A stretch of 27,929 nt of DNA from a virus, in the IMG/VR virus record IMGVR_UViG_3300001749_000003, positions 1 through 27,929 of that record; one strand, written 5' to 3'. This document shows positions 2,156-25,643 of this stretch, one piece after another. The notes below the pieces were generated by a model. That model was not told the DNA's origin, made no database searches, and worked only from the letters and a program-made list of their open reading frames with translations. Within the stretch, counting starts at the first letter, position 1. The number at the start of each line of letters is the position of its first letter. A program made the translations under genes and the position numbers.

Positions 2156-3045
2156 ATGAAGAGTGATGTAAGTCAATCTGATGTAGTTATTTCCAAACAA
2201 TCTAATATGGCTACACTACAAGATGGCCTTACCAACCTAGCAACTGGCCTTGGTGGTACTCAAGATAAAGCTACCTTCAATCAGTGGAATCACTCTGGAC
2301 GTAATTTTGATCATGTTACCCTATCAGCACGCTATCGTGAATGCTGGTTAAGCCAGAAAGTTTGTAAGATAGTCCCACAAGATATGACTAGGGAGTGGCG
2401 CAAGTTTAACTCTAAGTTAGCTCAAGAGGCCGACAAAGAATTTGAAGTTGATAGCTTGTTCAGGGAAGCTTACAAGTGGGCTAGGTTGTACGGTACTAGT
2501 TTTATTGTACTAGATATTGATGATGGAAGAACTACAGATAAACCTGTAAATTGGAAGAGGTTAAAAGAAGGATGTTTAAGATCCATGCATGTTGTGGATA
2601 GAACTAGGATAGTAACCTTGGGTGAGATTGATCAGAAACCTATGAGTGTTACATTCGGTATGCCTGACCATTACCAATTCGTAAACACTACTACACCTAT
2701 ACATAAAGACAGGCTTATTCGTTTTGAAGGTACGGAATTGCCAATATATGAACGACAAAGAAACTTATGGTATAGTGATAGTGTATTAATACCACTTACT
2801 CAGCAAATGGATAACTTCTATGTTGCTAGTTCTGCTGCAGCTCAGATGGTATCAGAAGCAAACACCGATGTTATTAGAATACCAGATCTACAAACTATTT
2901 TAGAAAGTGATTCTGGTACTGCTGCTATGATAGCCCGCTTTCAAGGATGGAAACAAATTAAGGGTGTTTATGGTGTTTCAATACTAGATCAAGAGGAAGA
3001 GTTTGACCAGAAGAAGATACAACTTTCTGGATTGAAGGACTTGAT
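2156..3045 (+). CDS. Portal protein (DUF1073 family), exon 1
   Basis: First exon of the portal, the dodecameric ring at the capsid vertex through which DNA is packaged and ejected. The ATG follows AAGGAG at a good distance. The segment LSARYRECWLSQKVCKIVPQDMTREW near residue 60 and ARFQGWKQIKGVYGVSILDQEEEFDQKK near residue 265 match the DUF1073 portal pattern. The frame continues unspliced to a stop at 3103, but the last about 19 codons do not fit the family, while the missing family sequence resumes at 3870. I place the exon end after 3045, in phase 2 (codon AT|T), because GACTTGAT pairs with a downstream GTCAAGT as a group I P1 helix. Exon 1 plus exon 2 gives 1320 bases, 439 residues, reading LSGLKDLI-WEYLKIVAASV across the junction. 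Unspliced RNA would give a truncated, non-functional portal. Confidence 0.88.
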
Positions 3046-3869
3046 AAATAACTTGTCAAGTATAAACCCTTTTAAATCAGTGGAACCCCTAATATTAAGT
3101 TAAGGGCAATACTGAGCTATGGTGAATATCTTAGGATTAGTAACCGAAGTGCAACGACTAAATGTAACTCTCAAGGGAGCTTACAAGAGAGGCCAAGTGG
3201 CTTCGTAATTTAGGGGCATACTCAAGGTAGTATGTAAGATATAGTCTAGGCTGCATAGTAATATGTAGAAGAGTGTAAAGATGAATTATATAACAGAGTA
3301 TCGTAGCAAGAAATATTATGTGGGTAGTGTCCACGCAACAAACGATCATGGCCCACTTAAAGTTTTAGGCAGGCTTGATGATCCAAAATGTGACTTATAC
3401 GCAGTAGAATTCTTAAGTACTGGATTTAAAACTAAAGCCAGAACAAGTGGCATTGTAAAAGGCATGGTGAAAGATTATCATGTACCAGTAGTATTCAACA
3501 GGGGATTTCTAGGTACTGGTAAGCACACAACAAAGAAGAATGGAAAGACAACAAGAGAATACAAAGCATGGACAGGAATGTTCTATCGTTGTTACTCTAG
3601 TGACCCTCAACACAAAAACTATGTAAGAAGGGGTATTACTGTTGATCAAAGATGGCACAACTTTCAAATATTTTGTGATGATATAGAAAAGTTGGAAGGC
3701 TATGAAGCTTGGAAGAATGGGTTTAACATGGCACTTGACAAAGATATAAAATTTAATGGTACATATAGCAACACTAGTTGTATGTTTATAACCAAGGCCG
3801 AAAACACAAAAGAGGCCAATAATAGAAGACACTCTAGTAAGAACTAACGAATCTTGCTTAATAACACCG
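3046..3869 (+). ncRNA. Group I intron interrupting the portal gene
   Basis: About 824 bases separate two halves of one portal reading frame. Seen directly: ACTTGAT at the end of exon 1 can pair with GTCAAGT at 3055-3061, putting a U.G pair at the 5' splice site as in P1 of group I introns. GCAACGACTA at 3151-3160 and AAGATATAGTCT at 3236-3247 match the conserved P7 elements of T4-td-like introns, and GACTA/TAGTC pair exactly. The proposed intron ends in G at 3869. The endonuclease gene lies 3' of P7, in a peripheral loop of the P9 region. Splicing joins the frames exactly. The edges could be off by a few bases; the 3' site was chosen to give six residues between DLI and VAA as I recall for this family. 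Confidence 0.85.
3281..3847 (+). CDS. Intron-encoded HNH-type homing endonuclease
   Basis: A 188-residue basic protein encoded wholly inside the portal intron. The C-terminal half contains YKAWTGMFYRCYSS, then RRGITVDQRWHNFQIFCDDIE, then NGTYSNTSCMFITKAENTKEAN, the order seen in HNH-family endonucleases of phage introns (W..M..RCY, GI.V..RW..F..F, Y...NC.W.....N). The usual central His-Asn-His residues are not all obvious: DKDIKFNGTYSNTSC has the Asn-rich part but a clear first His is lacking, so it may be a variant or a weakened enzyme. Such proteins cut intronless alleles near the insertion site and drive intron spread by recombination; the expected target is the portal gene around the exon junction. 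It stops 22 bases before the 3' splice site. A clear ribosome site is not visible (GAAGAGTG lies upstream of the ATG). Confidence 0.8.
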   Translation: MNYITEYRSKKYYVGSVHATNDHGPLKVLGRLDDPKCDLYAVEFLSTGFKTKARTSGIVKGMVKDYHVPVVFNRGFLGTGKHTTKKNGKTTREYKAWTGMFYRCYSSDPQHKNYVRRGITVDQRWHNFQIFCDDIEKLEGYEAWKNGFNMALDKDIKFNGTYSNTSCMFITKAENTKEANNRRHSSKN

Positions 3870-4313: not shown

Positions 4314-5369
4314 ATGAAACTAACTAACATTAACTTGGTAGATCGTATCAGTGTGCCAACAAAGCGTACACTAACTGATGCTGGCCAAATGCATGTTCCT
4401 TGTAAATTTGCCAAAACAGGTACTCAGCTTTACACAGCTAAGCAACTATGTTTGGTAGATGAAGACCCCAATAAAATTATTGCGGTTCTTAGAGATGAAG
4501 CTGATGTGTTTGATGAAAAGTCTATTGAGACTTTCCGCAGTGCACCAGTAACAATTGGGCACCCTAAAGATGAAAATGGGGAAAACCTAAAACTTACTGT
4601 TGATAATGCCAAAGAGTTACAAGTGGGTATGCTTGAAGGTATGCCAACTCGTGATGAAGATACACTTGGTGGCATATTGGTATTAACTACTGTTGAAGCT
4701 ATTGATGCTTTAGAAGGAGGAACACAAGAACTATCTGCGGGTTATACTTGTGATATTGAAGAAGTAGATGGTAAATATTACCAGCGAAACATTAAGGCTA
4801 ACCATATTGCTATTGTAGCCAAAGGAAGAGCTGGATCAAGTTGTCGTATTTCTGACGAGGCAGACCTTCATATTGCAGATGAACTACTTGCTACACAAAC
4901 CAAAGTGTTAGAACTTGAAGCTAGCAATGAAGCAGTAAAAGTTGCACTAACTGATAGTAAGACCAGCAATGAAGCCCTAGAGATTGAGCTAGAGAAAAGC
5001 AAAGCTGAACTTACTGATGCGAAAGAAGCTGCCAAAGAAGATGTAATTGTTCGATGTAAAGTAATCGAACAAGCCCGATTAATCTCAGATATGCGTATTG
5101 AAGATATTGGTGCTAAGACTACTTTAGAAATTCAGACCTTGGTAGTAGAAGATCAGATGCCAGACAAATCTTTAGAAGGCAAAAGTGAACATTACATATC
5201 TGCCATGTTTGATATAATTGCTGACTCTACTGATGGTGAAACACCAATGGGTAAGCTGATTAAGAAACAAGAAACACACATAACTGTTGACGCTAAGGAA
5301 AAAGTAAAAGATCCTGTAGCTGCAGCTCGTAAACGTATGCAGGCCCGTCAGTCTGCCCAAAGTAAATAA
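4314..5369 (+). CDS. Prohead protease fused to scaffold (DUF2213)
   Basis: The N-terminal 180 residues match the DUF2213 family, regarded as a herpesvirus-assemblin-like serine protease that matures the prohead. Candidate catalytic residues are H83 (in TIGHPKD), S141 (in ELSAGYTC) and H164 (in KANHIAIV), in the order and spacing expected for this fold. The remaining 170 residues are charged and helical (coiled coil about 190-240, repeated ELEASNEAV and ALTDSKTSNEAL phrases), which fits an internal scaffold that is digested after assembly. It ends with a basic tail (AAARKRMQARQSAQSK) that may bind the capsid protein. Start ATG follows AATGGAG. Upstream is the portal, downstream cement and capsid genes. 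The fusion of protease and scaffold in one chain is common; the division point is inferred. Confidence 0.82.
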   Translation: MKLTNINLVDRISVPTKRTLTDAGQMHVPCKFAKTGTQLYTAKQLCLVDEDPNKIIAVLRDEADVFDEKSIETFRSAPVTIGHPKDENGENLKLTVDNAKELQVGMLEGMPTRDEDTLGGILVLTTVEAIDALEGGTQELSAGYTCDIEEVDGKYYQRNIKANHIAIVAKGRAGSSCRISDEADLHIADELLATQTKVLELEASNEAVKVALTDSKTSNEALEIELEKSKAELTDAKEAAKEDVIVRCKVIEQARLISDMRIEDIGAKTTLEIQTLVVEDQMPDKSLEGKSEHYISAMFDIIADSTDGETPMGKLIKKQETHITVDAKEKVKDPVAAARKRMQARQSAQSK

Positions 5370-5381
5370 GGAACAAATAAC

Positions 5382-5885
5382 ATGCCTATTCAAACTTTTA
5401 ACATCTACACTGCAAATGGTTACGCTGGCGATCTAGTTGATTCTGGCCCCCGTGTTGTACAAACAGGTATTCTAACTTCTGCATCAGCGGGTTTTGGTCT
5501 TGTAATGTCTCGTGATTCTGCAACTGTAGATCGTGGTGTTGCACTTTCTGATTCTGGTGCCTCTGGTGCTGTGATTGATGTGTTCGCACTAAGCCAGCGT
5601 GAATACAACCATGAAGCAAGCAACCGACCTTCCGATGGCACTGACTTTGAATATAAAGTTGCTGAATCTGTATCACTTATTCGTGATGGCTACTTATACA
5701 TCAAACTTGCTGCTGGTTCTTCTGCTGTTTCTGGTGGAGATAAACTACAGTTTATTACTGCAACTGGAGAACTTACTGGTGCTGCTGCTTCTGGAACAAC
5801 TCGTTTGGCAACTAGTAACATTGTAGCTGAAGAAGCCGGTATCGCTGGTGACGTTATTAAAGCACGAATCATTCTTGCAGACTAA
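5382..5885 (+). CDS. Capsid cement / decoration protein
   Basis: A 167-residue Ala/Ser/Gly-rich, beta-rich protein placed between the prohead protease and the major capsid gene, the usual place of the small structural cement protein in DUF2213/DUF2184 phages. It starts MPIQTFNIYTANGYAGDLVDSGPRV and has the phrase QFITATGELTGAA near residue 125, which I recognise as typical of such cement proteins (it is processed like DUF2190-type decoration proteins). It would bind the outside of the expanded capsid and stabilise it. Start follows AAGGA with 8-9 bases spacing. Arginine codons are nearly all CGN, unlike most other genes in the window, suggesting high expression. Identification rests on position and composition more than on a strict motif. 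Confidence 0.7.
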   Translation: MPIQTFNIYTANGYAGDLVDSGPRVVQTGILTSASAGFGLVMSRDSATVDRGVALSDSGASGAVIDVFALSQREYNHEASNRPSDGTDFEYKVAESVSLIRDGYLYIKLAAGSSAVSGGDKLQFITATGELTGAAASGTTRLATSNIVAEEAGIAGDVIKARIILAD

Positions 5886-5920
5886 TATTACAACTAATTA
5901 ATAAATAAGGATCCAATAAA

Positions 5921-7012
5921 ATGTCAAAAGTAGTTAAAGTATTCGCCATTGATGAAGATACTCGTATAGAGTTAGTTGATGAAGAAAAAGTTGAGTTTGT
6001 AATTAATGATGCTGTTGAGCACCTGATTAATACTGGTGTGTTGATGGGAGATGACGAGGGTGTATTCTTCCAACGTCAACTTGAATACATTCAGGCACAA
6101 TCCTATGATGTACTTTACCCAGAACTTATGGGCCGTGAGTGCTTCAGTTTAAACTCAGAAGGTGGTGAAGGCATTAACTTAATCACTTACCGTAGCTATG
6201 ATAAGCGTGGTGAGACTGCAATTATTGCTGGTAAGGCAACTGATTTGCCTCGTGGTGATATTTCTGGTAAAGAATATTCTATCGCTGTTAAGACACTTGG
6301 TAATGCCTTTGGATATTCTCGCCAAGAACTAGCTGCAGCTAAAGTAACTGGTATGCCTTTGGAAGCACGTAAAGCTGAAGCCACTCGTCGATCTTACGAA
6401 GAAAAGGTAAACCAAATTATCTGGTTTGGTTCTGCTGAGAATAACCTTAATGGTTTCTTTGATGGCCCTGCTGGTGCACCTTGTTTGTCTGTTTCTAAAA
6501 CTCAAGTTGCTGCTGCTTCTGGTGGTGGTAATAGTCGTGTATGGGGAGTTGATAAAACACCTGATGAGGTTATTAAAGATCTTACAAGTGCTTGTGCTAA
6601 GCATTACTCTGACACTAAGAAGTTATTCCGACCTGATAAGATCTTTCTTTCAGTTGAGAAGAAGCTTTATCTGATGAACACACCTCGTTCTGAAGTGTCA
6701 GATATGTCCATCATGAGTTGGTTCTTAGCCAATAACCAGTTTATTAAGTCTGCTGATGACTTCAAAGATATTAACGAACTTGATGGTATCTACGATGTTG
6801 CTGGTGGAGCATTCGATCCTGCTGGTGGAAAAGGTAATGGTTTCACAACTGTTTCCTCTGGTTCTGATAATGCTCGTATTCGTGAGCCCTTTCCTTATCA
6901 GCATTTACCTGTACAGTATAAAGGTCTTGAATTTGAGATCAACTGTTATGGTCGATTTGCTGGTGTGGAGATGATCCGACCTGCAGCTTTCCAACATTTC
7001 TACGGCGTTTAA
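5921..7012 (+). CDS. Major capsid protein (DUF2184)
   Basis: A 363-residue protein matching the DUF2184 family of HK97-fold capsid proteins: ERQLEYI-like FFQRQLEYIQAQSYDVLYPELMGREC near residue 50, ITYRSYDKRGETAIIAGKATDLPRGD near residue 90, GYSRQELAAAKVTGMPLEARKAEATRRSYEEKVNQ around residue 135, and IREPFPYQHLPVQYKGLEFEINCYGRFAGVEMIRP at the C terminus. It forms the icosahedral shell. A GATCC/AAGGAT ribosome site precedes the ATG. Codons are of the highly expressed type (CGT for Arg, ATT/ATC for Ile, few AGA or ATA), in contrast with baseplate genes. There is no obvious cleaved delta domain, consistent with a separate scaffold in the DUF2213 gene. Confidence 0.9.
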   Translation: MSKVVKVFAIDEDTRIELVDEEKVEFVINDAVEHLINTGVLMGDDEGVFFQRQLEYIQAQSYDVLYPELMGRECFSLNSEGGEGINLITYRSYDKRGETAIIAGKATDLPRGDISGKEYSIAVKTLGNAFGYSRQELAAAKVTGMPLEARKAEATRRSYEEKVNQIIWFGSAENNLNGFFDGPAGAPCLSVSKTQVAAASGGGNSRVWGVDKTPDEVIKDLTSACAKHYSDTKKLFRPDKIFLSVEKKLYLMNTPRSEVSDMSIMSWFLANNQFIKSADDFKDINELDGIYDVAGGAFDPAGGKGNGFTTVSSGSDNARIREPFPYQHLPVQYKGLEFEINCYGRFAGVEMIRPAAFQHFYGV

Positions 7013-7028
7013 TTAGTCGGGGGTCAAC

Positions 7029-7397
7029 ATGCATTGGTTTAAAGAAAATGTAGTTGGCCTACTTGCAGCACTAATCATATTGGGGGGTTCTTATGGAGCC
7101 CTCTACGCTGATGTTAGTGTAAGCAGTAGTGCTATCAAAAAGCAAGAACAGCAAATTGAAAAGCTAAATGATAAGGTAGATGAAATATCTAATATCTTAC
7201 ACTTAAAGCATAACAATTATGATAGTCAATTAGTCATTATAGCAAACTCAACCAACAGATTATTACTGGCACTGGATAAGATAGATGCAGTATATAGGGA
7301 TGTTGTAACTAAGAATGCTGTACAAAGTGAACAAATTAATGCTATCAAACACCACATTAAATTAGAGAGAGAATATAAATATGAAAATCAAGAATGA
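7029..7397 (+). CDS. Small membrane-anchored coiled-coil protein
   Basis: 122 residues: a short N terminus (MHWFKEN), one hydrophobic segment about residues 8-28 (VVGLLAALIILGGSYGALYA), then a charged helical region (IKKQEQQIEKLNDKVDEISNIL) that looks like a coiled coil, and a basic C-terminal helix. This is the layout of an inner-membrane protein with a periplasmic coiled coil, similar in shape to inner-membrane spanins, but no partner outer-membrane lipoprotein gene is visible and the gene is inside the head operon. A start at GGGGGTC-ATG (7029) uses a G-rich ribosome site. It overlaps the next gene by 17 bases. Function unknown: spanin-like lysis protein, superinfection exclusion factor and virion-associated protein are all possible. 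Confidence 0.65.
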   Translation: MHWFKENVVGLLAALIILGGSYGALYADVSVSSSAIKKQEQQIEKLNDKVDEISNILHLKHNNYDSQLVIIANSTNRLLLALDKIDAVYRDVVTKNAVQSEQINAIKHHIKLEREYKYENQE

Positions 7398-7686
7398 AAC
7401 AGTGTGCAACCAATCAATTATATGTGACCAAGCTAACCTAGTTGATGGTGTAGGTCATATCTTAATTGTTGGTGAATCAACACTAGAGATTAGTGACGAG
7501 TTATGGAATGCACAAAAGCATAACTTTGCAGAACAACTTAAGGCTAAAGTACTAACTATTGTTGAAGCACCTAAGTTGACAGAAGAAGAAGAAGCTGAAT
7601 TAGAAGCAGAACAACTTGCCGCTGCAGAAGCACTAGTAGCTAAATCTAAAGCTACAACTAAACCAAAGGCAAGTACTAAAGCATAA
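7381..7686 (+). CDS. Small acidic head-region protein, unknown
   Basis: 101 residues. The first 65 have an alternating beta pattern (VGHILIVGESTLEISDELWNAQ), followed by an acidic helix (LTEEEEAELEAEQLAAAEAL) and a short basic Lys/Thr/Ala tail. It lies between the capsid gene and the DUF4054 connector gene; many related phages have a small unnamed gene at this point. The ATG overlaps the previous gene and is preceded by GAGAGAG. No catalytic motif is visible. The charged tail may mediate assembly contacts, but that is only an inference. Confidence 0.6.
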   Translation: MKIKNETVCNQSIICDQANLVDGVGHILIVGESTLEISDELWNAQKHNFAEQLKAKVLTIVEAPKLTEEEEAELEAEQLAAAEALVAKSKATTKPKASTKA

Positions 7687-7698
7687 TAGGTTAAAACA

Positions 7699-8103
7699 AT
7701 GGTAACTAACCCAACAGATTTTAAATTGAGGTTTCCAGAGTTTGCCAGTATTGATGATGCAAGAATACAACTATTTTTAGATGATGCTGTACTAATGATG
7801 ACTAGCGAGGATAAGTGGCTTGAATACTACACACTTGCTCAGTCGTATTATGCAGCACATCTATTAATTGCTGGTGAGTTCAGTTCTATGGGTGACTCAG
7901 GTGCAATGTTTCCTTTAGCTCATAGTGAGGTTGATGACGTAGTACTAAAGAGAGCTGTTGGTGATGTTGATCCAAAGGCAGAAGAATTATTATCAACTAC
8001 CTATGGCAAAAGATATTTAAAGTATCGTAAGATTTGTCTTACTGGAGTGAGAACCACTACCGTTGGCACAGTGCCGGTACGTGGATTCTCTTACATAAGA
8101 TGA
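7699..8103 (+). CDS. Head-tail connector protein (DUF4054)
   Basis: 134 residues. The N terminus NPTDFKLRFPEFASIDDARIQLFLDDA is the hallmark of the DUF4054 family, followed by the helical YYTLAQSYYAAHLLIAGEF. The family forms the adaptor ring that docks below the portal and begins the neck (HK97 gp6 / SPP1 gp15-like role). The C terminus TTTVGTVPVRGFSYIR probably inserts into the ring. It ends in an ATGA overlap with the next neck gene, as expected for subunits made in matched amounts. Confidence 0.85.
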   Translation: MVTNPTDFKLRFPEFASIDDARIQLFLDDAVLMMTSEDKWLEYYTLAQSYYAAHLLIAGEFSSMGDSGAMFPLAHSEVDDVVLKRAVGDVDPKAEELLSTTYGKRYLKYRKICLTGVRTTTVGTVPVRGFSYIR

Positions 8104-8471
8104 CTATGAATATGGGCGCTGCCTTTCAAGCCCCAATGCTAGTAGCTATGATTAGGCGATCTGTAGCTGAAGGTTCTTATGATACAAATAATGACTGGGT
8201 AGATGGCTTAGTAGAAGATAGTACAATTTATGGTGTACTAACTTCTGGTAACAGGTTTTCACAGTTTGATGAAGGTATATCTATACACTCAGAAGATGGT
8301 GGTAAGCGTTACAGTGACTTTAAGTCATTGTATGTTAGAGATAAGTATGCAGTAGGTTTAGATGACAAAGTAATATTCAAAGGTATTATCTACAACATAC
8401 TACAGAAATCTGATGAAGCACACTTTGGTTTTGAAAGCTATTTAGTTGAGAAAACTAAGGAGAGAGCATGA
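8100..8471 (+). CDS. Head completion / stopper-like neck protein
   Basis: I choose the ATG at 8100, which overlaps the upstream stop (ATGA); a longer frame from 8034 would overlap the connector by 70 bases without a better ribosome site. The resulting 123-residue protein has a beta-rich core (STIYGVLTSGNRF, GGKRYSDFKSLYVRDKYAVGLDDKVIFKGIIYNIL), which is the small-barrel pattern of phage head-closure and stopper proteins that assemble beneath the connector. No exact family name is claimed. It is followed by another ATGA overlap, forming a neck cassette of three coupled genes. Confidence 0.65.
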   Translation: MTMNMGAAFQAPMLVAMIRRSVAEGSYDTNNDWVDGLVEDSTIYGVLTSGNRFSQFDEGISIHSEDGGKRYSDFKSLYVRDKYAVGLDDKVIFKGIIYNILQKSDEAHFGFESYLVEKTKERA

Positions 8472-11066: not shown

Positions 11067-11447
11067 ATGAAAGATTATAAAGCAACATTAAAAGATGGTA
11101 GATCTATTTTCATACCTAGTTGGCCAGTTGATGTGGCACTAGAAAACTTAACCCAAGCTGGAAAGGTGTTGGGGTCAGAAAACATTATTAATATATCAAC
11201 AATAAACATACCTGCTGTAATAGTTGCAGTTATGAACTGTGAAGACCCAAAGACAACTTCAGCTTTAATTAGACATTTTATTTGTCAGGTTAGGATTGAA
11301 GGAGATAAGATTAGTCCTGAAACAATAAATAATATGTTTGAGGGCTCACTATTTACTGTAGCAGAATTGTTTGCTCATGTAATACATAGTCAATATTCAG
11401 ACTTTTTCGAATTAGGTTTAGCAAAGGAACCCTCCCTAGACAAATAG
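11067..11447 (+). CDS. Tail assembly chaperone-like protein
   Basis: 126 residues, between tube and tape measure, the place of the tail assembly chaperone (gpG-like) in long-tailed phages. The sequence begins with a short beta hairpin (YKATLKDGRSIFIPSWPVDVALENLTQAG) and continues helical (IPAVIVAVMNCEDPKTTSALIRHFIC, TINNMFEGSLFTVAELFAHVIHSQYSDFFELG), similar in style to chaperones of Mu/P2-like contractile phages. It would coat the tape measure until the tube polymerises. The downstream frame 11468-11671 is open upstream into the end of this gene, so a -1 frameshift product is possible. The ATG is preceded by GAGAAAAGTA, a weak ribosome site. Confidence 0.7.
   Translation: MKDYKATLKDGRSIFIPSWPVDVALENLTQAGKVLGSENIINISTINIPAVIVAVMNCEDPKTTSALIRHFICQVRIEGDKISPETINNMFEGSLFTVAELFAHVIHSQYSDFFELGLAKEPSLDK
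11402..11408 (+). promoter_or_regulatory. Candidate -1 frameshift site C_TTT_TTC
   Basis: In the reading frame of the chaperone gene the bases are GAC TTT TTC GAA. The -1 frame is open from 11390 to 11671, so slipping on the T run would add FRIRFSKGTLPRQIVSGEA and then the next ORF. It is only a partial match to the X_XXY_YYZ rule (the first base is C, not T). Tail chaperone genes often use this mechanism; here it is a suggestion. Confidence 0.35.
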
Positions 11448-11467
11448 TATCGGGAGAAGCTACCACA

Positions 11468-11671
11468 ATGCCGGTAGATTATAGTGAAGTATATCCAGAA
11501 CTGAATGGATATTTGATAAAACCTTTGTTAGTAAATCCTCCATTATGCACATTAAAAGAGTTGCAAGATGGTACATACAAAATTAGTGACCTAGAGATGT
11601 TTCACCAAGTTATAGAAATAAAACAACACATGCAACCTCCACCCAACGCTGGGCTAGGAGGCTCTAGTTAG
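11468..11671 (+). CDS. Second tail-chaperone frame (gpGT-type T region)
   Basis: 67 residues from the ATG at 11468; contains TLKELQDGTYKISDLEMFHQVIEI, which resembles short proteins encoded just before the tape measure in contractile-tailed phages (DUF6889-like; remembered, not searched). The same frame is open back to 11390, within the preceding gene, and the extra residues (GTLPRQIVSGEATT) look like real protein that flows naturally into MPVDYSEVYPELNGYL. This supports production as a -1 frameshift extension of the upstream chaperone. A free start is also possible, since GGAG lies 11 bases before the ATG. It would link the chaperone coat to the tape measure or tube. Confidence 0.6.
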   Translation: MPVDYSEVYPELNGYLIKPLLVNPPLCTLKELQDGTYKISDLEMFHQVIEIKQHMQPPPNAGLGGSS

Positions 11672-11679
11672 GAGTAAGT

Positions 11680-14600
11680 ATGAGTGACTACGATGATTAT
11701 GAAGGTTTAGAAGTATATGATAGCCCTGATGGTGGAAACATTGATGGGGAACTTGATGAAGCAGCACTATGGCTACAAGGTCAAGGTGGTGTGCTTGATG
11801 AAGATAACGACAGCCCCATATCTAGAAATATACTAGAAGGGGCAATGACTGCTGCAGACTTACAACTAGGTAGAATAAGTCACGTAGAACCAAGGATTCA
11901 AGCTGGTATTAAAGCCCTACTAAGTGGCCAAGATATTAGTGGTGTGTCTGCAGTAGATAAAGCTGCAGCCATACAACAGTTTACTAGTGAGATAGGAATA
12001 GCACCAGAAGTGTTTGCTAGTAGGATCAAGCTAGATCCATCAGTGCAAGTACCAAACTACTCTGGTGATATTAAGACAGTACTTTCCATGTTGCAAAATA
12101 CTTCTGGAGAGTACATGGTTAGGGGCCCAGGAAAAACACTACCTGGGAACTATATAGATAGTGAGAAGAGGTTAGAAGCTAATGATGATCTAACTACTGC
12201 AATTGGTTATATAACTGAGTTATCTGATTTATATATTGATGGCAGAACAAGAGGATCAAGTGTAGAACAAGCAAGAAGGAGTGCTGTTGAGGCTGGATTA
12301 GTATCTAGGCTTAGAGATGGTGTTTTCTATGATGGATCTAAGGACATATTACCACTTCCAAACGAGGTTGGTATATATGGAGAAAACACTAGAGGTGTAA
12401 CTGGTTTAGTTAGGACACAAGGAATATATGGATCAATTCAAGGTACTGCTGATGATAGGCTGTCTTCTGGCAGGTTTGATGAATACTACCAAACAAGTAA
12501 TGCTGCTGGAGAGAAGACTAGGTTTGTCCGTGATAGTAATGGAGGAAAAGTTTTTAAAAATGACGTTTCCAAGGAAGACAGAACTAGAATACTCAAAGCT
12601 ACACCATCTTTAGCCAACTCATTGTTTGCTAAACCTAAGCCAGCAAGAGGTACTAGGTTTACTCAGGAAGAAAGAGATAAACATAGTAGAGATCAAAAGT
12701 ATCTTCTTGATCAAGCTCAATACAAAGCTGAGTTTGCTAGAAAGGTACTAAGGCAACAATTCCCTACAACTAGGGATGAAAGTGCAGGCCAAATAAACAT
12801 GGCTGGCTTTGATAGACCAGTTGGCGAACAAGAAGAAATGCAAAACCTTAGAAATGAGGCTGCAATACTTGGGTTAGATTGGTCTGCAGGAGTTGATCTT
12901 GATAACGTAGGTGGTGTATCAACTAGCACACTATCAACTGAAGATGCCATGAAGGTGGGTATTTTCTCTTCAGGTGGTGTAGGATCTGACAAGTCTGGTG
13001 GGTTTGGCTATACTCAAATGTCAGATGTAGATAGGTTTATTGAAGAAGAGTTAAACCCAGAAGTGGATAATGTTGTGTCATTAAATCCTAAACAGGGAAC
13101 TCCAGAATGGTTGGCTCAACGTAGGGGTAAAATAACAGCATCAGTTATAAAAGGTATATTATTAGAAGGTGGTGTTGATGACATAGCACTACAACTAGCC
13201 AAAGAAAGGTTAGGCACTGCTGAACCATTTGAAGGTAATGCTGATACTAGGGAAGGCAACAAAGGAGAAGATAAAGTTGCTGCATCTTTCCTAGCTGGTG
13301 TTGGTAAGAACTTCACCATGGGAGAGGCACATTTTGTGTCTGGTGATCCAAAGGGATTGAAAGGTTTTGGTGTATCACCAGACGGCTGGCTAATAAACGG
13401 TGAAGGTGAAAGTGAGGGGCTAGCAGAGTTTAAACTTCTAAGTGGCAGTAGTATGAAGACTGCTGTGAAAGACTACACTAACCAGATGCAACTACAAATG
13501 GCTGTGACTGGTGAAAAGCAAGTACACTTTTATGCGCTAGACAAACATTCGGGTGAATACTTACATGAGGTAGTTAAAGAGGATGTTGACCTACAAGACA
13601 AGATAATTTCTGCTGGCAGGCAAGCAATTGATAAAGCCTCAAAGCTAGATCACATAGGAGTTCAAGCTTTGAGCAAAGATATAGAAGCCAAGAAGATGGG
13701 CCCAAGAGCACCATCAAGATCTATGACAAAAGGCCAAAATAAGTCTTTTGAGGTAACTAAGGGTGTTGTGGAGAATGTAACAGCATTTGATCCTGCAGTT
13801 GCTAATGTTGATACAGAGTTAGGTGCCGCATCTAAAACTGTTATGGCACAGAAGCTAGAAAAGTTAGATCAAGCTGAAAGACTTAAGAATGCTGTAGATA
13901 GTGCACAAGATGTTTCTGGTATGAGCAAGATCGAATCTGAACAATCAGAAACTAGACGAATGAAAGCCCAAGCAATATTTAGCAATAATAATAGAAGAGC
14001 TGGGTTTGAAGGTAATCAGCCAGATAGTGAGATGGCTAAGTACTACGAAGAAGCACAGAAGAAAGCTGCAGATGCAACTAATGAAGCTACCAACTCAGTA
14101 TCAGAGTTTGGAAAAGCAACCATGAAAGCTGTCGGTATATTATCAGAGCTTGGTGGTATGGTTATGTCTGGCAATAAGTCTGGTATGGATGAAGTACGTT
14201 TTGCTAATGAAGTTGGAATGGATGTTAGAAATGTCCGTGGTATGCGTGAATCCTTAGAGAAAGGTATGCTTAGTGACACAGGTATTAACAAAGTTATAAG
14301 TAGAGCTGGAAGTCTGGTAAACACTTTTAATAGTGAACTAGGTTTTGCTTCAGAGTACACCAACATACTAGAAGCAAGAGGTGTATCTAACTTAGAATCA
14401 GTACGTAGTATGGATATACCTAGACCTTCTGAATTGAAAGATATGAACCCACAACAAATGGTAAGCATGGTTGCTGGACTAATGGAAGGCAAAACACAAG
14501 AAGAGAAAGTCCAGATTGGTAGAATATTCGGCATGGCAGAGTTGGCTTCAAATACTGCCTCACCAATGGCAATAGATGCTGCTTATGATCTATCTATTAA

Positions 14601-15261
14601 TCAACAGAACTTAGAGGCCACTAGAGCAGGTATTGTAGATGTTGAGCAAGTTAAGAGACAAGCACTAGAACAAACTGGTGAGATAGGTTCAGTAGGCGGA
14701 TCAATTGCGACTGGTTCTGTTGTAGCTGGTGCTATTGCTGGTTCTGCAACTATGGGTTTTGTTGGTGTTAAGGCTGCCCAAATGTTATCAAGAGCTGCAC
14801 CAAGTGCTAATGCTGCTAAGATGGCCAAAAGTATGTCTGTACTTGGTAAATCTACACCACTTGCAATGGCTGCTGGCTTGGCACCTTTGGCAATAAGAGG
14901 ATTATCTGGTGTTAAAGATGATGGTACTGTTGGTGATTCTGCATTAGACATTATGGAGTTTGCTGGCTATGGAGCTGCTTTAGGATCAGTAATTCCTGGG
15001 GCTGGCACTTTGTTAGGTGCTGGTTTTGGAACTGCTTTAGGTATTGGTAATGAGGTAATGGAATACTTTGAAAGTGATCCGTTGCCAGATCCTAACATAG
15101 GTGAAATGAGGCAGACACATGGCCCTAAAGATAAAGAGAAGAATATAGTGAATGTAGAAGTTACTAATGAAATATCAAGAGATCTTATTAGAACTACTAC
15201 AGATGTTAATGGTGATCTAAATGTAGATGAAGAGTCTGGAATAGGAACTGGAGATAGCTGA
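11680..15261 (+). CDS. Tape measure protein with embedded YqaJ-like nuclease domain
   Basis: 1193 residues, located between chaperone and hub genes; this place, the long charged helical stretches, the hydrophobic C-terminal segments (about 1004-1035 and 1094-1125) and the terminal NIVNVEVTNEISRDLIRTTTD block identify a tape measure. It would set a tail of roughly 180 nm at 0.15 nm per residue if all of it counted. Residues about 465-660 form a separate domain of the YqaJ / lambda-exonuclease nuclease family: KQGTPEWLAQRRGKITAS (472 on), REGNKGEDKVA, GFGVSPDGW with D568, AEFK with E583 and K585, and NQMQLQMAVTG with Q602-Q606. The D...ExK plus QxxLQ pattern is intact, so the domain may be active. 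The N-terminal 465 residues match nothing I know. Most Arg codons are AGA/AGG. The tape measure enters the cell with DNA, so a nuclease could be delivered early. ATG follows GGAG. Confidence 0.85.
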   Translation: MSDYDDYEGLEVYDSPDGGNIDGELDEAALWLQGQGGVLDEDNDSPISRNILEGAMTAADLQLGRISHVEPRIQAGIKALLSGQDISGVSAVDKAAAIQQFTSEIGIAPEVFASRIKLDPSVQVPNYSGDIKTVLSMLQNTSGEYMVRGPGKTLPGNYIDSEKRLEANDDLTTAIGYITELSDLYIDGRTRGSSVEQARRSAVEAGLVSRLRDGVFYDGSKDILPLPNEVGIYGENTRGVTGLVRTQGIYGSIQGTADDRLSSGRFDEYYQTSNAAGEKTRFVRDSNGGKVFKNDVSKEDRTRILKATPSLANSLFAKPKPARGTRFTQEERDKHSRDQKYLLDQAQYKAEFARKVLRQQFPTTRDESAGQINMAGFDRPVGEQEEMQNLRNEAAILGLDWSAGVDLDNVGGVSTSTLSTEDAMKVGIFSSGGVGSDKSGGFGYTQMSDVDRFIEEELNPEVDNVVSLNPKQGTPEWLAQRRGKITASVIKGILLEGGVDDIALQLAKERLGTAEPFEGNADTREGNKGEDKVAASFLAGVGKNFTMGEAHFVSGDPKGLKGFGVSPDGWLINGEGESEGLAEFKLLSGSSMKTAVKDYTNQMQLQMAVTGEKQVHFYALDKHSGEYLHEVVKEDVDLQDKIISAGRQAIDKASKLDHIGVQALSKDIEAKKMGPRAPSRSMTKGQNKSFEVTKGVVENVTAFDPAVANVDTELGAASKTVMAQKLEKLDQAERLKNAVDSAQDVSGMSKIESEQSETRRMKAQAIFSNNNRRAGFEGNQPDSEMAKYYEEAQKKAADATNEATNSVSEFGKATMKAVGILSELGGMVMSGNKSGMDEVRFANEVGMDVRNVRGMRESLEKGMLSDTGINKVISRAGSLVNTFNSELGFASEYTNILEARGVSNLESVRSMDIPRPSELKDMNPQQMVSMVAGLMEGKTQEEKVQIGRIFGMAELASNTASPMAIDAAYDLSINQQNLEATRAGIVDVEQVKRQALEQTGEIGSVGGSIATGSVVAGAIAGSATMGFVGVKAAQMLSRAAPSANAAKMAKSMSVLGKSTPLAMAAGLAPLAIRGLSGVKDDGTVGDSALDIMEFAGYGAALGSVIPGAGTLLGAGFGTALGIGNEVMEYFESDPLPDPNIGEMRQTHGPKDKEKNIVNVEVTNEISRDLIRTTTDVNGDLNVDEESGIGTGDS

Positions 15262-16223
15262 TGGCAATAGCAAAGTTTGGTCAGTATGTACTACTTGAAG
15301 TGCATGACGAGTCAGGTGCCTTAGTATTCTCTACAGATAACCTAAAGATAGATTTTGATATAAGGCATATCACTGGTTGGAGTAGGGCCAAGTTTACAAT
15401 AACTAACTTGGCCCCAGACACTATACGAAAAATAAGCTATGGAGAAAACTATCTAACACTCAAGGTTAAGTTACATGATGGGCCAGAACACATAATAGCA
15501 GATAGGATGTTCATTAGTAATGCACTGGAAGAGGTTAAGGTTCCAGAAAGCATATTTAACATGTACTGCTACTCTAAATTACGCAGAAAGTTCTTAGAAG
15601 AGCAAATTAATGTTAAGATAGATAGCCCGTCACTAAGGAGGGTTATTCAAGGTTGCCTAGAAGCTGCCAAGTATAAAGGAAGTGTAGAGTTTGTACACTT
15701 CCCAGAAGGTATGTTAGATTATGTACCACCAAGCCCAAATCAAATCCATAGGGGTTCACTAATAACTTGCTTGAAAAGGATTGGTGCTAAAGGCAACTAT
15801 AGGTTTAATGTCTATACAGTTGGTAACAAGTTTGTGCTAATGTATAAACCAGAAGCTAAAAATGTGGAAAGTACTAGCTTATTTGATGGTGAAGGTAACA
15901 TTAAACTTAAGACCAACAACATGAGATCTAACCCTAAGATAGGGCCAGCAACATTAAGTGTCATATCTAACTTAGACCCCAATATAAAACCAGCCACAGT
16001 TTTAGACATATCACAACTACTAACTGTTGGAACTAACACTGATCAGAAAACACTTGAGGTAGCAGAAGAGTACCTGTTTGAGAAGATAGCAGGCTTTAGT
16101 AAGTATCAAGTGTTATCAGTTCAACATAAAGGTTCTAACTGGGACAGCAATTGGATGACCCAAGCAGCGGCAACTTCACCTACTCATGGAACTAACATGC
16201 CCACAGGCAAGTGGTGGGAATAG
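15261..16223 (+). CDS. Baseplate hub protein (gp27/gpD-like)
   Basis: 320 residues, start in a TGATG overlap with the tape measure stop. The sequence opens FGQYVLLEVHDESGALVFSTDNLKIDFDIRHITGWSRAKFTITNLAPDT, the first hub barrel seen in baseplate hub proteins of this phage type, with a middle part (SLRRVIQGCLEAAKYKGSVEFVHFP, then HRGSLITCLKRIGAKGNYRFNVYTVGNKFVLMYKP) and a C-terminal end (YQVLSVQHKGSNWDSNWMTQ). The hub trimer connects tube and spike. Gene order (tape measure, hub, Dit-like, spike) supports the assignment. It ends 8 bases ahead of the next ATG. Confidence 0.78.
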   Translation: MAIAKFGQYVLLEVHDESGALVFSTDNLKIDFDIRHITGWSRAKFTITNLAPDTIRKISYGENYLTLKVKLHDGPEHIIADRMFISNALEEVKVPESIFNMYCYSKLRRKFLEEQINVKIDSPSLRRVIQGCLEAAKYKGSVEFVHFPEGMLDYVPPSPNQIHRGSLITCLKRIGAKGNYRFNVYTVGNKFVLMYKPEAKNVESTSLFDGEGNIKLKTNNMRSNPKIGPATLSVISNLDPNIKPATVLDISQLLTVGTNTDQKTLEVAEEYLFEKIAGFSKYQVLSVQHKGSNWDSNWMTQAAATSPTHGTNMPTGKWWE

Positions 16224-23690: not shown

Positions 23691-25643
23691 ATGCCTAATG
23701 TAATTGCTAACTTAATCAAATCTTCCACAACAACTGAGGTAACAACAATGTCCAACACAACTAAGCAAGAAGCAATCAACTTAAATAACATCAACAAGTC
23801 AGCTTTAGTATCAACAATGGCTGCTGAACTGTTTATTCAAGGCTTAAGTGAAAGAGTAAGTATGATAACTGCTGTTGCATTTATTGGTGCAATTGATTAT
23901 CTTGATGATTATGAAGACTTTTCAGAAGCTTTTATAGAAGGTATGGAAATCACCTCACTAGAGATAGTCGGGCTAAATGAACAGCCAGAGTGTGACATAG
24001 ATGGTGAGTTGGTAGAGAGTATACTTCAAGCTGCCAAGTACCTAGATGGTGAGTCAGTTGGGCCTAGGTTGTATGAGTTATGTGAACTTAGGTCTGAGGC
24101 TTATGAACCAACTACAGGTGAGATAGTTAGAAGGTTTGGCTATTCTAAAGTTAAACACTCTGAGTTGTTTATCGAAGCTATCCATGCTCTTGAAGCAACT
24201 GAGTATACAGTTGATATAGATATATTATCAATTGCATTGCAAGTACAAGGTAAGCTTGGCAAGGATAACGATGAAGAGTCTTATGTTATTAGTGGTTGTC
24301 AAAACATGAATCCTGAGTTGGCTTACAAGTCAGAGTTCAAGGGTGACAGAAGAGGAAGAATGTATCAAGCTGCTTGTCATGGGCCTAATGGTCAATCTTC
24401 TGATAGATCAAGAGCACTTATGAATCTTCAAGGTGTTCCAACTGACTACGATGTTGTTACAGTTAAGAAGCATATCTTAGCTGAGATAGAAGACATGGTA
24501 GCTTCTCCAAAGGATAGTGCCAAGGAGTTAAGAGAGTTGGGTGATGTAGAGTTTATCATCAAGCACCTAGATAGTGATGTAGTTAAGAAGCCTTGGAGTT
24601 TTGTTAAGGCTGCCAAGATCATGCGTGAGTTACAAGCAGGTAACAAGCCCTACATTGGTATGGCTGTAGGTTTAGATGCTAAATGTTCTGGGCCTCAGTT
24701 AGGTGCCTTAATGGTTGGTGATCAACAGATTGCTGCTGCTTGTGGTTTCACCATGACTGAGTTAGATGATGCCTATCATTTGTCTTTGGTAGAACTAGCT
24801 AGGGCTGGCTTTACTAACATAACCAGAAATGGTATCAAGAAGGCATACATGGGTGTGTTCTATGGTCAAGGTTGGGCTGCATTTACTGACCTTGAGGAGA
24901 TAGGTTCTGAGCTAGCTAACTCACTTTATGGTGAGGGAATGCCAGCTAATGATGATACAGCTAAGATGTTCCACAAAGCCTTAGTTGCATCATTTGGTCA
25001 GAAGATGATAGCTGTACGTAACTTGTTTAAGTCATACGCCAAAACTACTAAAGGTCGCACTTTACATAGTATGCCTGATGGGTTTGAAGTAGCCATGAAC
25101 TACAAAGTCAAGACTAACATCTTGGGTGAGATCATGGAGTATGACACAGAACAATACGATGTAAGACTACGTAATAATGCTGAGTCTTATAAGTTTATCA
25201 ACTTCCAACTTAAGACCTTGGATGTGCATGAGGGTGACTTTGCTAGAAATGGGTTTGTTAATATGATCCAAGCTACAGATGCACTTATAGCTAGGTTGAT
25301 AGTAGTTCACCTTAAGAGATTAGGTGCTAAGCATATCATATCAGTACATGACTGCTTTCGAGTTAATGTTACTGAGATGCACTTGCTTGAAGAAGCTATC
25401 AAGTTATCATACATGGATCTATTTGGATCTGAGTACAATAACTCAACTAGTGACTTACCACTAGGAACTGACATACTTGGTTTGTACTTTAAAGGAGCCA
25501 ACAAGCAGTTAATAGAAGGAGAAGAAGAAGTTATGGTTAGTCAGTTCTTCAGCTCTGGTAAAAGAAGACTACGTAAGATCAATAGTGTAAAAGTTGTAGA
25601 TCTTATTAGTAGCCTAGGTGATACTTATTACTTCGCTAAGTAG
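23691..25643 (+). CDS. T7-like single-subunit DNA-directed RNA polymerase
   Basis: 650 residues. All core motifs of the T7 RNA polymerase family are present: FKGDRRGRMYQ with D219-R223 (DxxGR motif), GLDAKCSGPQ with catalytic D329 (motif A), RNGIKKAYMGVFYG with R379, K383, Y391 and G392 at exactly the T7 spacing (R627, K631, Y639, G640; motif B), and SVHDCFRV with H553 and catalytic D554 (motif C). About 170 residues separate motifs B and C, enough for a promoter-specificity loop. It is shorter than T7 polymerase (883 residues): the part before DxxGR is about 200 residues shorter, so the N-terminal promoter-melting domain is reduced or different. ATG follows AAAAGGAT. Upstream repeats carry sigma70-like sites; downstream lie five candidate promoters for the enzyme itself. 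The C terminus ends YYFAK, loosely like the aromatic T7 foot. Such enzymes are best known from podoviruses. Confidence 0.9.
   Translation: MPNVIANLIKSSTTTEVTTMSNTTKQEAINLNNINKSALVSTMAAELFIQGLSERVSMITAVAFIGAIDYLDDYEDFSEAFIEGMEITSLEIVGLNEQPECDIDGELVESILQAAKYLDGESVGPRLYELCELRSEAYEPTTGEIVRRFGYSKVKHSELFIEAIHALEATEYTVDIDILSIALQVQGKLGKDNDEESYVISGCQNMNPELAYKSEFKGDRRGRMYQAACHGPNGQSSDRSRALMNLQGVPTDYDVVTVKKHILAEIEDMVASPKDSAKELRELGDVEFIIKHLDSDVVKKPWSFVKAAKIMRELQAGNKPYIGMAVGLDAKCSGPQLGALMVGDQQIAAACGFTMTELDDAYHLSLVELARAGFTNITRNGIKKAYMGVFYGQGWAAFTDLEEIGSELANSLYGEGMPANDDTAKMFHKALVASFGQKMIAVRNLFKSYAKTTKGRTLHSMPDGFEVAMNYKVKTNILGEIMEYDTEQYDVRLRNNAESYKFINFQLKTLDVHEGDFARNGFVNMIQATDALIARLIVVHLKRLGAKHIISVHDCFRVNVTEMHLLEEAIKLSYMDLFGSEYNNSTSDLPLGTDILGLYFKGANKQLIEGEEEVMVSQFFSSGKRRLRKINSVKVVDLISSLGDTYYFAK

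Follow-up and report, generated by a model that had tools for sequence, protein, structure and literature searches.

Enzymes inside tape measure proteins are regarded as cell-wall cutters. Could the tail tape measure encoded by an uncultured virus instead carry an exonuclease of the type that acts on DNA, and what would such an enzyme do there? The window, the whole stretch of DNA that was analysed, comprises 27,929 nucleotides (positions 1 to 27,929 of IMG/VR virus record IMGVR_UViG_3300001749_000003). The original prediction, made from the letters of the window, placed a YqaJ-like nuclease domain inside a tape measure of 1193 residues, and this was borne out by Pfam, PHROG, PDB profile and fold matches and by the tape measure slot that the gene occupies.

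The window makes up the first half of a contig of 56,534 bases. The final 2,688 bases of the contig repeat its initial 2,688 with six mismatches, all within the last 84 bases, and the unit trimmed of this repeat is 53,846 bases long. The end repeat indicates that the viral genome is essentially complete; it may alternatively be the assembly overlap of a permuted genome. From 8468 onward a tail completion gene is followed by sheath, tube, chaperone and chaperone extension, after which come the 1193-aa protein, the baseplate hub and more baseplate genes (Table 1). The best named matches of the sheath are Chaseviridae (Vibrio phage VPs20, Aeromonas phage ZPAH14 and Shewanella phage SppYZU05, 34-43% identity), and the genome agrees with that family in its lytic myovirus size class (~50-57 kb), its T7-type RNA polymerase and its related structural genes. 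By these comparisons the source virus is a Chaseviridae-like lytic myovirus of roughly 53.8 kb.

Table 1. Features in and around the 1193-aa ORF (window coordinates; lambda Exo equivalents in presumed numbering).
Feature	Position	Strand	Basis
Tail assembly chaperone, short form (gpG-like), 126 aa	11067..11447	+	PHROG 11820, E=1.4e-14
-1 frame open stretch (annotated ORF 11468-11671, 67 aa)	11390..11671	+	PHROG 4364, E=9e-10; open-frame analysis
C TTT TTC, -1 frameshift heptamer variant	11402..11408	+	Sequence; 17 loci compared
Assigned tape measure with internal exonuclease domain, 1193 aa	11680..15261	+	Between chaperones and baseplate hub; orthologs
Lambda-exonuclease/YqaJ fold domain, residues 466-674	13075..13701	+	Profiles, predicted fold
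Pfam YqaJ span, residues 476-612	13105-13515	+	Pfam profile
R481 and S488 (lambda Exo R28, S35)	13120..13143	+	Invariant in 33 aligned domains; profile alignment
E530 (lambda Exo E85)	13267..13269	+	Invariant in 33 aligned domains; profile alignment
D568, predicted metal ligand (lambda Exo D119)	13381..13383	+	40/40 sequences; profile alignment
E583-x-K585 (lambda Exo E129/K131)	13426..13434	+	40/40 sequences; profile alignment
Q602/Q604/Q606 motif (Q602, lambda Exo Q157)	13483..13497	+	40/40 sequences (motif also a search pattern, see text); profile alignment
Hydrophobic Gly/Ala-rich C-terminal segments, ~residues 1009-1121	14704..15042	+	Hydropathy scan; SLT in relatives
Baseplate hub, directly 3' of the 1193-aa ORF	15261..16223	+	PHROG 196, E=1.1e-15

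Translation of the ORF is uninterrupted over its 1193 aa. Its sole matches in Pfam and PHROGs are to the nuclease domain and no profile names it a tape measure; PHROG 19855, 'virion structural protein', was matched by three aligned relatives. A heptamer T TTT TTC was found in phase near the end of the chaperone ORF in all 16 Chaseviridae-like relatives compared, and C TTT TTC occupies this register in the window's chaperone. The -1 frame at this site stays open until just short of the tape measure start and is probably a gpGT-like chaperone extension reached by frameshifting. Nearly all of the 16 relatives likewise have an open -1 frame that ends no more than a few dozen bases from where the tape measure begins. 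This conserved frameshift site, in the chaperone gene just before the ORF, argues for its assignment as a tape measure.

Length and virion content were also considered. A helical tape measure spans ~0.15 nm per residue, so that a tail of 110-130 nm takes roughly 730-870 helical residues, and complete tape measure ORFs of the relatives (1131-1723 aa) have spare length for a globular insert. Tails of 110-130 nm have been reported for Chaseviridae (PMC8472413). Of the twelve top proteins that LC-MS/MS identified in virions of Escherichia phage 4HA13, the tape measure is named second, with the major capsid protein directly before it (PMC9699118). The ortholog of the window protein at 4HA13 locus AC4HA13_0067, annotated as tape measure and equated with the virion protein of that paper by shared name and gene order, carries the YqaJ domain (E=7.4e-10). 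Position, the upstream chaperone frameshift, length and the virion-found ortholog together identify the 1193-aa protein as the tail tape measure, as judged from sequence comparison. The hydrophobic segments near its C terminus are a candidate membrane-active part. Cleopatravirinae orthologs have a lytic transglycosylase (SLT) domain in the matching region, whereas a Pfam scan detected none in the window protein. The Cleopatravirinae tape measures hold two enzymes, the YqaJ nuclease mid-protein and the SLT transglycosylase near the C terminus.

Within the window protein, PF09588 (YqaJ) matched residues 476-612 with E=1e-8 and 36.1 bits (curated cut-off 22), and PHROG 434, RecE-like exonuclease, matched residues 465-650 (E=1.6e-15); agreement of this degree goes far beyond chance. 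When a profile of 33 related domains was searched against the PDB, the matches included LHK-Exo (7e-32), mimivirus nuclease R354 (9e-16) and lambda exonuclease (6e-12). The AlphaFold2 model of the isolated domain had a pLDDT of 87.8 and, by VIA-align, matched LHK-Exo 3syy with Z 20.6 (rmsd 4.1, 183 aligned) and lambda exonuclease 1avq with Z 19.5 (rmsd 3.5, 191 aligned), well above the scores of unrelated structures. Cas4, R354 and herpes SOX are also among its fold neighbours. The full-length model, which is partly trustworthy (mean pLDDT 59), places the globular domain after a helical N-terminal region and ahead of a long C-terminal one, also helical. The PDB matches listed for this model all fell on the nuclease domain, covering residues 466-674 (Z 20.7 to 3syy), and gave no fold assignment for the N- and C-terminal parts; the domain is predicted to fold within the whole protein.

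The motifs that had been named beforehand lie where they were placed: QGTPEWLAQRRGKITAS at residues 472-488, GVSPDGW with D568, AEFK with E583 and K585, and the glutamines Q602, Q604 and Q606. Seven residues, R481, S488, E530, D568, E583, K585 and Q602, are invariant across the 33 aligned domains; the profile alignment to lambda exonuclease pairs them with its R28, S35, E85, D119, E129, K131 and Q157. Every metal and phosphate ligand of the lambda-exonuclease type is present in the window domain. By profile and predicted fold, residues 466-674 are a complete lambda-exonuclease/YqaJ PD-(D/E)XK domain, and the embedded nuclease is apparently active.

An artefact in which assembly or annotation joined two genes was considered. 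In its favour, the annotation of Aeromonas phage pAh6-C divides this region among several short genes. The relatives' single ORFs, found on dozens of independent contigs, and the separately sequenced named isolates refute this explanation almost beyond doubt. The pAh6-C tape measure (4608-8202) is annotated as three hypothetical genes where relatives have one ORF; the split is either a frameshift in the record or real.

The spread of the domain was followed in relatives. The environmental ones were reached via the sheath, hence with no bias for the nuclease, and named Chaseviridae were added. Proteins in the same slot matched YqaJ in 18 of 20 cases. The two exceptions, which have no intact motif set, are a truncated piece of 513 aa and the first fragment of the pAh6-C gene; the pAh6-C genome does contain a YqaJ domain in its tape measure region. 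Exactly one YqaJ match per genome was obtained in 12 of 12 records, including seven named Chaseviridae from both subfamilies, and in 11 of these 12 the open frame that holds it measures 1207-1352 aa. Full-length orthologs covering at least 80% of the query were found in 23 and 72 named phage records. An alignment-based scan gave 48 loci, with the domain mostly inside tape-measure-sized ORFs that were complete or clipped by the contig end, and 29 complete tape measure ORFs from viral contigs (1131-1723 aa, some of them near-copies of each other) carry it. Searched as a single query, the whole protein found no relatives in viral contigs, and among named phages only its nuclease domain was matched, in stand-alone exonucleases; the rest of the protein is too diverged for such a search. 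When bacterial and archaeal genomes were scanned with the domain alignment, using a degenerate pattern that is narrow, no relative was found, which is in line with a lytic lifestyle. The combination of nuclease and tape measure in one protein is thus real, and it is no oddity of a single phage: the genomes compared indicate that the embedded nuclease is a trait of the whole Chaseviridae family and its uncultured relatives.

A tree of 52 domains set the 12 enzymes that stand alone on one side of a supported branch (98/88). The tree fits a single ancient fusion followed by vertical descent, with rooting and long branches as a caveat. Of 40 distinct sequences, including a few stand-alone ones, all 40 keep D568, E583 and K585. 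The glutamine motif served as search pattern for the loci of the alignment scan, and independent support for it comes from the loci reached via the sheath. In most close pairs, dN/dS of the YqaJ domain was 0.02-0.13, below that of the rest of the protein. The invariant active-site residues and the low dN/dS point to selection on catalysis, beyond the fold alone, and disfavour a decayed or structural-only domain.

These values also bear on a role in which the domain mainly grips the genome end in the tail, as a plug or guide, with catalysis incidental. Lambda-type exonucleases grip 5'-phosphorylated ends and the host protein may contact the leading DNA end, both of which would suit such a role. 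The catalytic residues, however, are as invariant as the DNA-contact ones over very divergent sequences, and dN/dS is well below 0.2 in most close pairs, so that we regard mere holding of DNA as very doubtful.

Known systems share parts of this arrangement. LHK-Exo (3syy/3sz4) and lambda exonuclease (1avq, 3sm4), both PF09588, have fold, motif order and active-site residues in common with the window domain, but they are stand-alone enzymes of ~200-226 aa, usually beside an annealing gene, whereas the window domain lies in the middle of a tail protein and no annealing partner was detected. Chaseviridae tape measures (phiEcoM-GJ1, Mangalitsa, PP101, SSEM1, 4HA13, ZPAH14) have the same gene position as the window protein, with 15-16% identity over the full length, and the embedded domain was found in the scanned orthologs of Mangalitsa, SA91KD, 4HA13, ZPAH14, VPs20 and SppYZU05. 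Tape measures of the T5 pb2 and TP901-1 type embed peptidoglycan-cutting domains. They likewise have an enzyme built into the ruler and delivered at injection, but theirs cuts the cell wall, not DNA. The host defence SNIPE cuts phage DNA (PMC13190303); it too unites nuclease, tape measure and DNA at the injection site, but from the host side, as a mirror image of the window protein.

Deposited labels for the gene differ among genomes: 'exonuclease/yqaJ' in ZPAH14, 'exonuclease' in LA93P1 and LA93P2, 'putative endonuclease' in SKA49, 'tape measure' in Mangalitsa, PP101, SSEM1 and 4HA13, and 'tail fiber' in many others. A search of the open literature found no paper with both Chaseviridae and YqaJ. 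In the portions available, the papers on 'tape measure' with YqaJ or a nuclease domain concern separate genes. No account of a tape measure that contains a DNA exonuclease domain, or of what such a domain is for, was found in the open papers searched. The remark in the original prediction that no described case was known therefore holds for open papers joining the two and has to be qualified for GenBank, where some orthologs are already labelled 'exonuclease'. The two halves were known from separate annotations; their union in one tape measure appears to be new relative to the open literature.

The recombination genes around the domain were examined. No RecT, ERF or Rad52-type annealing partner (PF03837, PF04404, PF04098) was found in the source genome and nine relatives, while most of the stand-alone relatives examined adjoin RecT, Bet, ERF or SAK-type annealing genes. 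Besides a 5'-3' replication exonuclease of its own, the source genome encodes endonuclease VII, ligase, A-family polymerase and primase-helicase. With no annealing partner found and a separate 5'-3' exonuclease present, the embedded domain does not look like an ordinary two-component recombination module; judged by gene content, it does not form half of any recognisable Red-type pair, and replication work has other candidates as well. That it is encoded in a late structural gene, and that the 4HA13 ortholog is reported from virions, points to a role in assembly or entry.

The domain could accordingly act late in the producing cell, where free or newly made tape measure, or a cleaved fragment of it, would serve in late recombination, in concatemer formation or in trimming DNA ends when the genome is packaged or head and tail are joined. 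Late action is favoured by the late expression of tail genes and by the domain being the only YqaJ (lambda-type exonuclease) in each genome. Virion DNases offer a precedent, as T4 gp4 is a head-completion DNase (PMC7824862). Like the window protein, gp4 is virion-associated and has a restriction-endonuclease-like fold, but it is a head protein that acts in assembly, not a tail protein, and is not of the lambda-exonuclease type. Against late action, a recombination enzyme need not be fused to a structural ruler, an annealing partner was not found, the genome has another 5'-3' exonuclease as well as endonuclease VII, and the family-wide fusion inside the tape measure favours a role in the virion or at injection. 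Late action is, on balance, unlikely.

Tape measures exit the tail ahead of the DNA, and the phage probably carries the nuclease into the cell together with its DNA. Lambda-type exonucleases bind a double-stranded end, which they require, and degrade the 5' strand. We tentatively favour the reading that a virion-delivered 5'-3' exonuclease resects the ends of the phage's own incoming linear genome. The tape measure would leave the tail before the DNA, so that the nuclease domain would enter the cell with the first genome end. There it would digest the linear phage DNA from its free ends in the 5'-3' direction and leave 3' single-stranded tails. If the ends are terminally redundant, complementary 3' tails could anneal and close the genome, and resected 3' tails would be poor RecBCD substrates. 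The terminal redundancy here is ~2.7 kb, repeated at the contig ends. Long direct repeats have been reported for Chaseviridae (PMC8472413; PMC9699118), including a direct terminal repeat of 3.1 kb in 4HA13 (PMC9699118). The broader proposition is that a family of lytic phages injects a tape-measure exonuclease and has its genome ends processed before any phage gene is expressed, with the circle closed and RecBCD escaped; it is possible and is put forward with a little more reserve.

Several points stand against end processing, among them the chance that the contig end repeat is an assembly overlap and that the domain acts late instead. Joining of the resected ends would need single-strand-binding or host proteins, as an annealing protein was not found. 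Lambda-type enzymes are trimeric rings, and a tail tube of ~4 nm would be too narrow to take three folded domains abreast, so that the domain would have to be staggered, unfolded or at an end.

The original prediction had also suggested that the delivered nuclease could attack host DNA, plasmids or prophages. As an injected weapon it would degrade these, or competing phage genomes, after entry; it sits in an injected-type protein, and members of the wider fold (Cas4, R354, herpes SOX) cut in several ways. By sequence and fold, however, its nearest relatives are lambda Exo and LHK-Exo, which are end-dependent enzymes, and each virion would deliver only a few copies. Lambda-type exonucleases need DNA ends and intact circular replicons such as host chromosomes and plasmids have none, which makes attack on them less likely; degradation of a competing phage's linear DNA is possible. 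Use as a weapon is, overall, quite improbable, and genome-end processing appears to fit the sequence and fold comparisons better than attack on host DNA, plasmids or prophages.

A conserved DNA exonuclease at this place would give the tail ruler a further tool, one that works on DNA just as injection takes place. Injection is difficult to study, and host defence is now known to target it (SNIPE). A specific question thereby becomes testable in a laboratory phage, namely whether a lytic phage treats its own genome ends with an enzyme that it brings along. The comparison also corrects the scattered labels (tail fiber, exonuclease, endonuclease, hypothetical) of one gene in about a hundred deposited genomes.

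Several other features of the source genome were observed. It has two T7-type RNA polymerase genes, at window 23691-25643 and contig 47897-49741. The copy in the window is divergent and corresponds to the Chaseviridae polymerase. The second (614 aa) is the better Pfam match of the two and has counterparts of 594-617 aa in several uncultured relatives, with none seen in the named Chaseviridae tested.

A homing-endonuclease-like ORF at window 3281-3847 seems to split the portal gene (2156-3103, possibly resuming at ~3946), and another at contig 51059-51967 seems to split the large terminase gene (50640-50849, then 52112-53380). The latter matches HNH endonucleases and the former is similar to it by eye; both are perhaps intron-borne. 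Apparently paralogous short proteins of ~80-140 aa, in five or six copies, are encoded at contig 28576-29977 and 33139-33375 and share the pattern 'YPRL ... W ... GxxFW'.
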